Source of the DNA: Microvirga arsenatis
Lineage (GTDB): Bacteria > Pseudomonadota > Alphaproteobacteria > Rhizobiales > Beijerinckiaceae
NCBI RefSeq assembly: GCF_009910705.1
Contig: NZ_JAAAXJ010000003.1
Span: forward strand, 372,001-436,000
Direction: 5' to 3'
DNA length: 64,000 nucleotides
Shown: piece after piece, positions 21,023-24,358 of the stretch
How the letters are laid out: the number at the start of each line of letters is the position of its first letter
Position numbering within the stretch: position 1 is the first letter of the stretch
The notes under the pieces: model-generated
Told to the model about the DNA's origin: nothing
The model's input: only the letters and a program-made list of their open reading frames with translations
Databases searched by the model: none
Translations under genes and position numbers: made by a program

Positions 21023-22006
21023 TCAGACACCCGGGCGCTGGGGCGAAGCCTGGAATTCCTTGGTGCGCAGCAAGCCGATCCGGTGCTCCCGCCAGACGAT
21101 GAACAGGCCGGTCGCTGCCACGATGGCGCCGCCGGTGAGAACGGTCGGCGTGGGCAGGTCCCCGAACATGAACCAGCCGAACAGGAGCGCCCAGATCATA
21201 GTGGTGTATTCGAAGGGCGCGATCACCGACGTGTCCGCAAACCGGTAGCTCTGGGTCAGCAGGATCTGGCCGATCCCGCCGAGGATGCCGCCGATCACGA
21301 ACAGGCCCCAGTCCATGGCATCGGGCATGCGCCACCCGAAGATCATGGTCAGGAGGGAGAGGAGCGAGGCCAGGATGAAGAAGTAGAAGACGATGGCGCC
21401 CGTCTTCTCGGTCGCGGTGAGGCGGCGCACCTGGATCATGGCGCCTGCGGAGCAGAAGGCCCCGGCGAAGGCGCAGAGTGCCCCTAGCGTCGGCCCGGCG
21501 CTCAAGCCTCCGGAGAACGTCTCGACCCTCAGATAGGGCGAGAGCATGATCAGAACGCCCACGAAGCCGATGGCCACGGCCGTCCAGCGATAGGCCCGGA
21601 CCTTCTCGTTGAGGAGAAGGGCCGCCAGGATCACGACGATCAGGGGCGAGGCGTAGCCGATGGCGATGGCATCGTGCAGGGGCAGGTACGAAAGGGCGGC
21701 GAAGCCCAGATACATGCCGCTCGTGCCGATCAGGCCGCGCTTGAAATGCCCGGCCACGTTCCGCGTTCTGACCGCGTTGACGAGGTCGCCCTGCCACCTG
21801 AGCCAGATCAGGAGCGGCAGGAGGGCGAAGGACGAGCGGAAGAACACGACCTCTCCCACGGGATAGCGGGTCATGAGCGTCTTGAGCGTCGCCGACATCA
21901 TCGTGAAAACGAGGGCGGACAGGACTTTGAGGGAGATCCCCAGGAGAGGTTTCACAGGAGGCGCATCGTCAGGAGCGGGATCGCGGCGGGAGGGGAGGAA
22001 AGACAA
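21023..22006 (-). CDS. DMT-superfamily transporter with two EamA domains
   Basis: A 327-residue membrane protein with about ten transmembrane helices in two EamA repeats. Motifs include YPVGEVVFFRSSFALLPLLI and SGMYLGFAALSYLPLHDAIA, which are typical of the RarD/YdcZ-like branch, and FEYTTMIWALLFGWFMFGD in the second repeat. It is probably an exporter of amino acids or other small metabolites. The second EamA gene at 1956-2891 has similar length and motifs, so the window carries two distant paralogues. It lies between the XRE-cupin regulator gene and the small membrane protein gene, all on the minus strand. Confidence 0.87.
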   Translation of the reverse strand: MSFLPSRRDPAPDDAPPVKPLLGISLKVLSALVFTMMSATLKTLMTRYPVGEVVFFRSSFALLPLLIWLRWQGDLVNAVRTRNVAGHFKRGLIGTSGMYLGFAALSYLPLHDAIAIGYASPLIVVILAALLLNEKVRAYRWTAVAIGFVGVLIMLSPYLRVETFSGGLSAGPTLGALCAFAGAFCSAGAMIQVRRLTATEKTGAIVFYFFILASLLSLLTMIFGWRMPDAMDWGLFVIGGILGGIGQILLTQSYRFADTSVIAPFEYTTMIWALLFGWFMFGDLPTPTVLTGGAIVAATGLFIVWREHRIGLLRTKEFQASPQRPGV

Positions 22007-22070
22007 TCACGATGACGCTCCCGCGTGAAGGCCCAATCGGCGCGGAAGCCCCTGCGCCGGATGCATGGGT

Positions 22071-22328
22071 TCAGGATCGCGCCGTCCGCGAGCGTTTCAC
22101 GTGCGAACGAACATAACCGATGGCAGTGAGTGCGAGCCAGGCCGCCTGAGTGATGAAGGAGGCCAAATTGAAGTCGAAGAGCAGTGAATAGAGAATAAGG
22201 AGCGCGCCGAGCGCATTGAGAAGCGCATAGCGGCCGTCCTCTACGCTCAGAAGGCCGAGCTGCAACAGCCCGTATGCCGAAAGATAGGCCGCAACCCCGA
22301 TCAGTCCGACCAGATCAGATACATTCAT
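22071..22328 (-). CDS. Small membrane protein, CBU_0592-like
   Basis: An 85-residue protein made almost entirely of three hydrophobic stretches (residues 5-27, 33-50, 55-73) with a basic C-terminal tail (HVKRSRTARS). The pattern LVGLIGVAAYLSAYGLLQLG followed by YALLNALGALLILYSLLFDF resembles the CBU_0592 small-membrane-protein family. That family is widespread in alphaproteobacteria and of unknown function. It lies upstream of the EamA gene on the same strand, with a 64-bp gap, and could share its transcript. Confidence 0.72.
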   Translation of the reverse strand: MNVSDLVGLIGVAAYLSAYGLLQLGLLSVEDGRYALLNALGALLILYSLLFDFNLASFITQAAWLALTAIGYVRSHVKRSRTARS

Positions 22329-22453
22329 CAGTGATCTCCGCCCGAGTCGAACTGGGCCTGAATGGGAAATCGATCCGTCATGGAACCGGATCTCTGCCTA
22401 ACCCACGGATGTCGAGGGGTGAAGGGGGACATCGCCCTGCCCGCTGCGGCCCG

Positions 22454-22482
22454 GCGTCACAAATCTGCAAGAAGAGCGTCAT
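22454..22482 (+). promoter_or_regulatory. Pho-box-like triple repeat upstream of plcP-agt
   Basis: Three 7-mers, GCGTCAC, CTGCAAG and GCGTCAT, each separated by 4 nt (AAAT, AAGA), give the 11-bp period of PhoB binding sites (CTGTCAT-N4-CTGTCAT). The outer two match six of seven bases to each other, and the middle one keeps CTG..A. The site is 57 bp upstream of the metallophosphoesterase gene. The match to the consensus is partial, so control by PhoB is inference, but the gene pair is of the kind PhoB is known to switch on. Confidence 0.5.
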
Positions 22483-22538
22483 GAGAGCGAGACGCGAATC
22501 CCGGATGGCTGAGTGCCGACAGCTCTCCGGGGGGACCC

Positions 22539-23351
22539 ATGGCCCAGGACATGAACGCAATTCGGGTGCGCACCCTGTTTCTCTCCGATCTCCACCTCGG
22601 AACGAAGGGGTGTCAGGCCGGAGCCCTGCTGGACTTCCTCAGGGCCTATGAGGCCGACACGATCTATCTGGTGGGCGACATCGTCGATGGATGGAAGCTG
22701 AGATCTGGCTGGTACTGGCCCCAGGCCCACAACGACGTGGTGCAGAAGCTCCTGCGCAAGGTCCGCAAGGGCGCGCGCCTCGTCTATCTGCCCGGGAACC
22801 ACGACGAGTTCCTGCGCGACTACATCGGCGTGAATCTCGGTGGGATCGAACTGGCGGATCATGCCCTGCACGAGGCGGCCGACGGACGGCGCTACCTCGT
22901 GATCCACGGCGATCAGTTCGACCTCGTGGTGCGGCACGCCCGCTGGCTCGCCCTGCTCGGGGACGGGGCCTACAGCGCAGCCCTCTTCGTCAACACCTAT
23001 CTCAACATCGTGCGGCGGCGCCTCGGGCTCACCTACTGGTCGCTTTCGGCCTGGGCGAAGCTGAGGGTGAAGAACGCGGTGAACTACATCAGCCGGTTCG
23101 AGGAGCTTCTCGCCGCCGAGGCCCGGCGCCAGGAGGCCGACGGCGTGATCTGCGGGCACATTCACCATGCCGCCATCCATGACGGGTTCGGCGTGGCCTA
23201 CGTGAACACGGGCGACTGGGTGGAATCCTGCACCGCGGTGGTGGAGCATTACGACGGCTCCCTTCAGCTGGTTCGCTGGACGGAGGTTCAGCGGGATTGG
23301 GTCATCGGCCCGGCTTTCGATGAGCCTCACGCCAGCGAAAGGGCCGCCTGA
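22539..23351 (+). CDS. COG2908 metallophosphoesterase, probable PlcP-type phospholipase C
   Basis: A 270-residue calcineurin-like phosphoesterase. Metal-site motifs are SDLHLGT (D17, H19), GDIVDGW (46-52), GNHDEF (86-91), IHGDQFD (122-128) and CGHIHHAAIHD (205-215). Automatic annotation would say UDP-2,3-diacylglucosamine diphosphatase (LpxH). However, S. meliloti PlcP, which frees diacylglycerol from phospholipids under phosphate starvation, belongs to the same COG and is often paired with a glycosyltransferase gene, as here. The glycosyltransferase start overlaps this stop (TGATG), so the two are translationally coupled. Together with the Pho-box-like repeat upstream, this makes lipid remodelling the better reading. 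LpxH remains possible. Confidence 0.75.
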   Translation: MAQDMNAIRVRTLFLSDLHLGTKGCQAGALLDFLRAYEADTIYLVGDIVDGWKLRSGWYWPQAHNDVVQKLLRKVRKGARLVYLPGNHDEFLRDYIGVNLGGIELADHALHEAADGRRYLVIHGDQFDLVVRHARWLALLGDGAYSAALFVNTYLNIVRRRLGLTYWSLSAWAKLRVKNAVNYISRFEELLAAEARRQEADGVICGHIHHAAIHDGFGVAYVNTGDWVESCTAVVEHYDGSLQLVRWTEVQRDWVIGPAFDEPHASERAA

Positions 23352-24358
23352 TGCGCCTGCTCATCGCAACGGATGCCTGGCGTCCTCAGGTGAACGGGGT
23401 CGTGCGCTCGCTGGAGCACATGGCCGGGGAGGCGCCGGGCTTCGGAGCCGAGGTGACCTTTCTCACGCCGGAGCGGTTCCGCTCCTTTCCGATGCCCACC
23501 TATCCGGAGATCCGGCTGGCCCTGGCGGGACCGGGCGCCGTCGCGCGGATCCTCGATGACGTCGCGCCCACCCATGTCCACATCGCGACGGAAGGCCCCA
23601 TCGGGCTCGCCACGCGCGCGGCCTGCACACGTCAGGGCAGGGCCTTCACCACGAGCTACCACACGCGCTTTCCCGAATATGTCGCGGCCCGAGCAGCCAT
23701 CCCCGAGGCCTGGTCCTATGCGGCGCTGAGGCGCTTCCACGGGAAGGCACGAGCCATGATGGTCAGCACGCCCTCCCTCGAGCGGGAACTGGCCGGTCGC
23801 GGCTTCCGGAACATCATGCGCTGGACACGGGGCGTCGACACCGCTCTCTTCCGGCCGAGGAACGAGCGCATCCTGGATGCGGCCGCGCCGGTCTTTCTCT
23901 ATGTGGGGCGCATTGCGGTGGAGAAGAATCTGGAGGCCTTTCTGCAACTCGACCTTCCGGGCACGAAGGTCGTCGTGGGGGACGGTCCCTTGCGAGGAGA
24001 GCTCGAGGGCCGATATCCCGAGGTCCGCTTCCTCGGCACCCTGGCAGGTGAGGATCTGGCGCGGGTCTATGCCTCGGCGGACGTGTTCGTCTTCCCGAGC
24101 CTCACGGACACGTTCGGGATCGTGCTGATCGAGGCGCTCGCCTCCGGCCTTCCGGTCGCAGCCTTTCCGGTGACAGGCCCGATGGACGTGATCGGGACCT
24201 CGGGCTGCGGCGTGCTGGGATCCGACCTGCGGGAGGCGGCCCTCGAAGCCTTGGAGATCCCGAAGGGCAGATGCCGGGCTTATGGCGAGACCTTCACCTG
24301 GCGGGAGAGCGCCAGGCAGTTCTTTTCCAACATCGCGTCTGCGCATTCCGGCTCCTAG
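23351..24358 (+). CDS. GT4-family glycosyltransferase, probable Agt-type glycolipid synthase
   Basis: A 335-residue GT-B glycosyltransferase. The N-domain starts MRLLIATDAWRPQVNGVVRS, the G-rich acceptor-side loop typical of lipid glycosyltransferases of the MgtA/PimB type. The C-domain has FLYVGRIAVEKNLEAFL, and FVFPSLTDTFGIVLIEALAS carries the EX7E-like sugar-nucleotide site. The usual role is adding a sugar to diacylglycerol or a phospholipid on the cytoplasmic face. Translationally coupled to the PlcP-like gene, it probably turns freed diacylglycerol into glycolipids (the Agt role in Agrobacterium). Sugar donor and number of sugars added are not readable. Confidence 0.8.
   Translation: MRLLIATDAWRPQVNGVVRSLEHMAGEAPGFGAEVTFLTPERFRSFPMPTYPEIRLALAGPGAVARILDDVAPTHVHIATEGPIGLATRAACTRQGRAFTTSYHTRFPEYVAARAAIPEAWSYAALRRFHGKARAMMVSTPSLERELAGRGFRNIMRWTRGVDTALFRPRNERILDAAAPVFLYVGRIAVEKNLEAFLQLDLPGTKVVVGDGPLRGELEGRYPEVRFLGTLAGEDLARVYASADVFVFPSLTDTFGIVLIEALASGLPVAAFPVTGPMDVIGTSGCGVLGSDLREAALEALEIPKGRCRAYGETFTWRESARQFFSNIASAHSGS

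Follow-up and report, generated by a model that had tools for sequence, protein, structure and literature searches.

We analysed a two-gene operon, plcP-agt, and its promoter in a 64,000-nucleotide stretch of Microvirga arsenatis DNA (contig NZ_JAAAXJ010000003.1), which we call the window. The first gene, plcP (22539-23351, + strand), encodes a 270-amino-acid COG2908-type calcineurin-like metallophosphoesterase (PF00149), a predicted PlcP-type phospholipase C. The second gene, agt (23351-24358, + strand), encodes a 335-amino-acid GT4 glycosyltransferase predicted to act on diacylglycerol. The stop codon of plcP (23349-23351) and the start codon of agt (23351-23353) have one base in common (TGATG), and this overlap, described in an initial annotation made from the DNA letters, was borne out by direct reading of the sequence and its open reading frames. 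Upstream of plcP lie two tandem Pho boxes, followed by a GAATC word. An Rfam scan of 21900-22700 gave no match.

The source genome comprises 5.05 Mb in 73 contigs and is 99.95% complete. We take the family and the order of the surveyed genomes to be Beijerinckiaceae and Hyphomicrobiales, judging by nearby named sequences (Methylobacterium bullatum, Sinorhizobium and Shinella) and by general taxonomy.

It is highly probable that the pair is a lipid-remodelling operon of the Pho regulon, which would replace phospholipids with glycolipids at low phosphate. The initial annotation had proposed the same, and on the sequence level the proposal is supported by the placement of PlcP, a separate LpxI, the motifs of Agt and the Pho box.

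Placement of the phosphoesterase

The window phosphoesterase is 59-60% identical to the PlcP of Sinorhizobium meliloti, which we take to be SMc00171, the tag given in the initial annotation, and 57% identical to the Pseudomonas aeruginosa protein. Its identity to LpxH of Escherichia coli and Klebsiella is 29-30% (29% for E. coli). It scores 45 bits against PF00149 (cut-off 21.5) and has the metal motifs D17-L-H19, GDIVD (46-50), GNHD (86-89), H123 and GHIH (206-209). A second copy of it was not found in the source genome at an E value of 0.001.

LpxH belongs to the same metallophosphoesterase superfamily and public annotation places the protein there. The plasmid collection held 32 matching records, and all 24 that are annotated are named UDP-2,3-diacylglucosamine diphosphatase, although many records are near-duplicates (11 from Roseomonas and 3 from P. 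aeruginosa) and 6 have less than 45% identity. The nine sequence matches in the PDB are all LpxH as well (best E 1.7e-7). Read in this way, the phosphoesterase would be the LpxH of the genome, working in lipid A synthesis, and the glycosyltransferase would act on lipopolysaccharide. However, the window protein scored 47.1 bits against the LpxH profile TIGR01854 (cut-off 190.35) and 47.2 bits against NF003743 (cut-off 134), and it has GNHD where both aligned LpxH sequences have GNRD. The search for a separate LpxI or LpxH, recommended in the initial annotation, found LpxI in the source genome by profile match (142 bits), so the refuting case named there, a protein of the LpxH clade in a genome with no other LpxH, LpxI or LpxG gene, does not apply. 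Moreover, PlcP is absent from 16 of the 119 family genomes (12 of the 111 near-complete ones), which would be unlikely for an enzyme of an essential step.

We then placed the protein in a FastTree phylogeny of 280 proteins, with supports taken from the unrooted tree. One split (support 0.955) separates 275 tips, namely the PlcP loci and one Thioclava sequence annotated as LpxH, from five outgroup sequences, namely four gammaproteobacterial LpxH and one Bacteroides sequence. The split of the four LpxH has a support of 0.994. The inner nodes on the PlcP side are weak, with 0.63 for the window protein together with that of S. meliloti and 0.0 once Pseudomonas is added. Since the window protein stands with S. 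meliloti PlcP away from LpxH, the initial naming of the protein as PlcP holds. The LpxH explanation is largely refuted and we consider it extremely improbable. The assignment to PlcP is supported and phospholipase activity is predicted from it. The warning that routine annotation as LpxH hides such pairs proved justified in all 24 annotated plasmid records, and this naming can conceal a phosphate-saving lipid exchange.

Motifs of the glycosyltransferase

The published signature of Agt consists of the motifs GRVAXEKN and FPSXTDTFG and a His104-Asp256 dyad (PMC8231724; papers are cited here and below from their accessible parts). In the window glycosyltransferase we found GRIAVEKN at position 186, FPSLTDTFG at position 248 (containing Asp253) and His104. 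Both sugar-binding motifs and the catalytic histidine match those of the characterised SAR11 enzyme (PMC8231724). This supports the assignment of the GT4 protein to Agt, a predicted diacylglycerol glucosyl- or glucuronosyltransferase.

Conservation of the operon

PlcP was found in 103 of the 119 family genomes, in 116 of 150 genomes of the order and in 71 of 192 genomes of the class; the order and class samples each include a few family members. Agt lies directly downstream of plcP on the same strand at 86 of the 106 places in the family, which correspond to 84 of the 103 genomes, and 64 of these 86 pairs have the one-base overlap. The same neighbourhood was seen in 81 of 88 loci from other families of the order and in 62 of 66 fetched loci from other orders of the class, after partial or weak matches at the end of the list had been excluded.

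The distribution of plcP is patchy in places. Some near-complete family genomes lack PlcP while their genus mates carry plcP (for example G018, G034 and G072, among the 16 of 119). Other genomes have a second plcP: loci L082, L103 and L104 (in G079, G019 and G068), and also G144, G145, G166, G185, G230 and G241. The second PlcP at L104 (37% identity) has an Agt of its own, as well as a separate Pho box plus GANTC. Among plasmids, plcP is present on three from P. aeruginosa (NZ_CP137508.1, CP075839.1 and NZ_CP042268.1), and at L147, on one of them, a glycosyltransferase gene overlaps the end of plcP. The Microvirga sp. VF16 plasmid NZ_CP069355.1 matches over only 41% of PlcP with 69% identity and may hold a truncated copy.

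Pho boxes upstream of plcP

In the initial annotation, three 7-mers (GCGTCAC, CTGCAAG and GCGTCAT) were reported to recur every 11 bp upstream of plcP, like a Pho box. The period is exact, but a fourth in-phase unit and the GANTC behind it had been overlooked. The four units form two tandem 18-bp Pho boxes whose starts are 22 bp apart (22454-22493). The distal box (22454-22471, + strand) consists of GCGTCAC (22454-22460) and CTGCAAG (22465-22471), and the proximal box (22476-22493, + strand) of GCGTCAT (22476-22482) and GCGAGAC (22487-22493). The ATG of plcP at 22539 is 57 bp past 22482. The proximal box has the position of the single box of other genera. The tandem pair is found at the same place in all four examined genomes of the window's genus, and most relatives have a single box; altogether, tandem boxes were seen in 6 of 151 box-bearing loci, the other two being L064 and L067 of one further genus (g2), where tandem boxes with starts spaced by 22 bp precede plcP and GAATC follows them.

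The loose single-box pattern matched 6 times in the window against 7.7 expected, which is no excess over chance. The tandem pattern had a single match in the window, and 100 dinucleotide shuffles gave none, but the pattern was defined after the site had been seen. The support for the Pho box therefore rests on its conservation. A regular-expression search of 108 upstream regions, taken from the 106 family places and from S. meliloti and M. bullatum, found the box in 93, where mononucleotide shuffles predict 2.0. CTGCAAG is a poor match to CTGTCAT, and the second half of the plcP boxes of the family is equally degenerate. The genome's own pstS promoter has three units with an 11-bp period, CTGTCAT-N4-TTGTCAT-N4-CTGTCGT. 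The phoB gene was found by profile match (340 bits against a cut-off of 296) on contig C72, where pstS, itself found in this way, lies about 3.5 kb away. The footprint across the family supports the reading of the repeat as a Pho box, and PhoB is present in the genome. Pho boxes in plcP clusters have also been noted in marine bacteria (PMC4796936).

Predicted course of the lipid exchange

When phosphate is scarce, phosphorylated PhoB would bind the tandem boxes at 22454-22493, which would stand in for a -35 region. Transcription would start about 22-25 nt past the box end, at 22515-22518 on the + strand, if this promoter resembles the PhoB promoters of S. meliloti (PMC3616915). PlcP would cleave membrane phospholipids into diacylglycerol and a phosphoalcohol. 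Translation of Agt would be coupled to plcP through the TGATG overlap, and Agt would add glucose or glucuronic acid to the diacylglycerol, giving phosphate-free glycolipids. Across the order, the promoter also carries an oriented GA(A>C>G)TC at a fixed 2 bp past the box.

Some observations weigh against this scheme. The regular expression found no box in 15 of the 108 upstream regions, and in other alphaproteobacterial orders it found a box at just 8 of 66 plcP loci, so that either the motif or the control differs there. The genome's own phoX (L423) has no box within 500 bp by the same expression. Finally, a Pseudomonas homologue takes only UDP-glucose (PMC8231724), and the head group cannot be read from the sequence.

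A GANTC element at a fixed distance from the Pho box

The GAATC of the window (22496-22500, + strand) is a GANTC, the methylation site of CcrM (PMC5172544, PMC3667746). Relative to the start of the proximal box it lies at +20, with 2 bp between it and the box end. A logo of 81 family sites from outside the window's genus showed conservation past the box at the GANTC from +20, in a part that is independent of the regular expression. Where several boxes were present, we took the one nearest the gene. The density of GANTC predicts about 0.3 hits at exactly +20 among the 91 box loci of the family set, but we counted 52; setting aside S. meliloti and M. bullatum leaves 50 of 89. The order set gave 45 of 60, or 43 of 57 once the named records are removed. 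In the inferred Hyphomicrobiales as a whole, 95 of 148 box promoters have GANTC at +20, while 40 other offsets reached at most 2, with a mean of 0.25. For these counts 148 of the 151 box loci were used, as three boxes outside -160 to -40 were dropped, and L110 and L146-L150, which belong to other orders, were left out. Of the 37 genera of the family that have a box, 25 carry the element, as do 24 of 28 other families with a box and the three named Rhizobiaceae.

The kinship of the genomes was handled by parsimony only. On the protein tree, the letters of the element change 25 (G), 21 (A), 23 (T) and 17 (C) times, the N changes 38 times and the flanks about 70 times, and the lowered rate continues to about +34. 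The presence of GANTC changes 28 times on the same tree, which shows that it was not inherited as a single block. The N of the plcP sites (n = 98) is A in 75, C in 17, G in 6 and T in none, and the other GANTC of the same regions (n = 201) have A in 82, T in 67, G in 27 and C in 25.

GANTC was not found at +20 of any of 22 pstS boxes (29 of 30 loci were scanned, each in a family genome; the weak L137 was dropped), nor at any of 8 phoX boxes (16 upstream regions, after four partial matches of 20 had been excluded). It was likewise missing at +20 of the 8 boxes at the 66 plcP loci of other alphaproteobacterial orders and of the 21 boxes at 80 Pseudomonas plcP loci. The composite pattern of box plus GANTC matched once in the source genome, at the plcP promoter. 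Across 60 family genomes it matched 92 times, 26 at plcP and 66 elsewhere, against 10 for a built-in control that is poor since it contains CTNAG. We claim plcP specificity of the composite only for the source genome and relative to pstS and phoX. One word of the pattern, CGTCACCCAACCGTCACGCGACTC, recurs in G011 and G052, two genomes of the same genus.

Within the window GANTC is otherwise avoided, with 101 occurrences against 348 expected, and such avoidance has been reported for Ensifer genomes (PMC8725594). Among the top-ranked entries of the open-licence literature we found nothing on GANTC at plcP, and a word search of the accessible part of an Agrobacterium CcrM paper (PMC11514494) found neither plcP nor lipids mentioned.

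Possible roles of the GANTC element

If transcription starts as predicted, the GANTC would lie at about -20 to -16, between the -35 and -10 regions. We weighed two explanations of the element, both compatible with the lipid-remodelling operon. In one, the +20 GANTC would couple the operon to DNA methylation through CcrM: the state of the site, or GcrA bound there together with sigma-70, would tune the transcription driven by PhoB as the cell cycle proceeds, or binding of PhoB would shield or expose the site. In the other, GA(A/C)TC and the next few bases would form an oriented core-promoter or activator element that works independently of methylation.

The fixed spacing at +20, its recurrence across genera and families, the slow change of the four GANTC letters, their absence from the pstS, phoX and Pseudomonas plcP boxes and the avoidance of GANTC elsewhere in the window all favour methylation. 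Genes for both factors are present by profile match, GcrA with 190 bits and a CcrM candidate with a RAMA domain, encoded by a 398-amino-acid open reading frame with DPPYNL. At ctrAP1, GcrA protects the stretch between -35 and -10 (PMC3667746), into which the predicted position at plcP would fall. There is a precedent in Caulobacter, where PhoB alters GANTC methylation at the promoter P169 (PMC5172544). However, the GANTC mutations made at P169 left phosphate-starvation induction in place (PMC5172544), and the orientation of the N (A>C>G, never T), unlike at other GANTC, is unexpected for a symmetric methylation site, which should be indifferent to it. Of the 98 plcP sites, 14 fit the extended GcrA motif YGAKTCG, compared with 55 of the 201 other GANTC, so the motif is not enriched and we rejected it as the explanation of the element. 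The window site, CGAATCC, does not match the published motif YGAKTCG/K (PMC7987155) on either strand. The commonest non-GANTC word at the site is AAATC (6 loci), which could not be methylated, and the zero count at the boxes of other alphaproteobacterial orders also speaks against methylation. Overall, a role of CcrM and GcrA at the plcP promoter is possible, but we regard coupling to methylation as rather doubtful.

The oriented N and one-mismatch variants such as AAATC are what a plain promoter element would show. Such an element would also fit the reduced change on to about +34 and the expected -10 that it adjoins, and, as this explanation has it, the weak Pho promoter of plcP would need it. 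Its absence from all 30 pstS and phoX boxes does not fit. Neither do the one-mismatch words, which change the N in 23 loci and the other four letters together in 12, as GANTC predicts. By eye, with no motif library searched, we recognised no known sigma factor or activator motif.

Three further candidates were rejected. For an ECF sigma factor -35 (GGAAC-type) in GGAATC, the logo has no conserved -10 at 16-17 bp. A third Pho half-site at positions 22-28 would have a consensus unlike CTGTCAT, and a palindromic activator site would have an unconserved second half.

We rank the plain oriented element ahead of methylation, because the N is oriented, the GcrA motif is rarer than elsewhere and AAATC variants occur. 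We lean slightly towards the plain element and keep the coupling to methylation as possible. More tentatively still, the plcP promoter of the Hyphomicrobiales could be a composite switch, in which the Pho box and a CcrM GANTC at a fixed 2 bp jointly read phosphate starvation and how far the locus is methylated or replicated. If true, this would tie the turnover of membrane phospholipids to the cell cycle, through an arrangement found at plcP and not at pstS or phoX. This additional DNA mark, at a constant place across the order, may link the switch for lipid exchange to methylation of the DNA and to the cell cycle. Its fixed spacing from the Pho box makes a possible coupling of phosphate-driven membrane renewal to the CcrM/GcrA cell-cycle circuit in alphaproteobacteria directly testable.

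In the source genome, gcrA adjoins phoB in convergent orientation (C72:11106-12421; L241 and L141), with 137 bp between the profile matches. A PhoU-like open reading frame, recognised by eye, lies upstream of phoB on C72, and a second, weak GcrA match on contig C19 contains a stop.

Comparison with known systems

The Caulobacter promoter P169 (elpS) resembles the layout predicted for plcP, in that a single promoter has CcrM sites and is controlled by PhoB (PMC5172544). It differs in that it serves another gene, is shielded by MucR and is induced independently of GANTC, and the accessible part of the report gives no fixed spacing between box and GANTC (PMC5172544).

S. meliloti PlcP (the copy in CP090106, 60% identity) has a Pho box with a GANTC (GAGTC) at +20, as in the window, but unlike in the window there is no agt beside plcP. 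In S. meliloti, PlcP feeds the synthesis of the lipids DGTS and SQDG (PMC3972451). Two characterised enzymes, Agrobacterium Agt (atu2297) and the GTcp of SAR11 HTCC7211, have membership of GT4, both motifs and His104 in common with the window Agt (PMC8231724), a comparison made by published motifs and not by direct alignment.

The closest parallel in gene order and protein families is the plcP-agt operon of Methylosinus and the other type II methanotrophs (PMC9239053). In Methylosinus trichosporium OB3b it makes glucuronosyl-diacylglycerol, and its deletion abolishes this lipid and slows growth at low phosphate (PMC9239053). According to the same study, agt neighbours plcP in every type II methanotroph, those of the Beijerinckiaceae included (PMC9239053). 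The window's genus differs from this operon in its two tandem Pho boxes, and the accessible part of the paper does not mention a box plus GANTC (PMC9239053). The window pair is an ordinary member of this published system. Its novelty was overrated in the initial annotation, because plcP-agt had already been described in Beijerinckiaceae, presumably the family of the window. The operon is therefore known, and the new part is its composite promoter.

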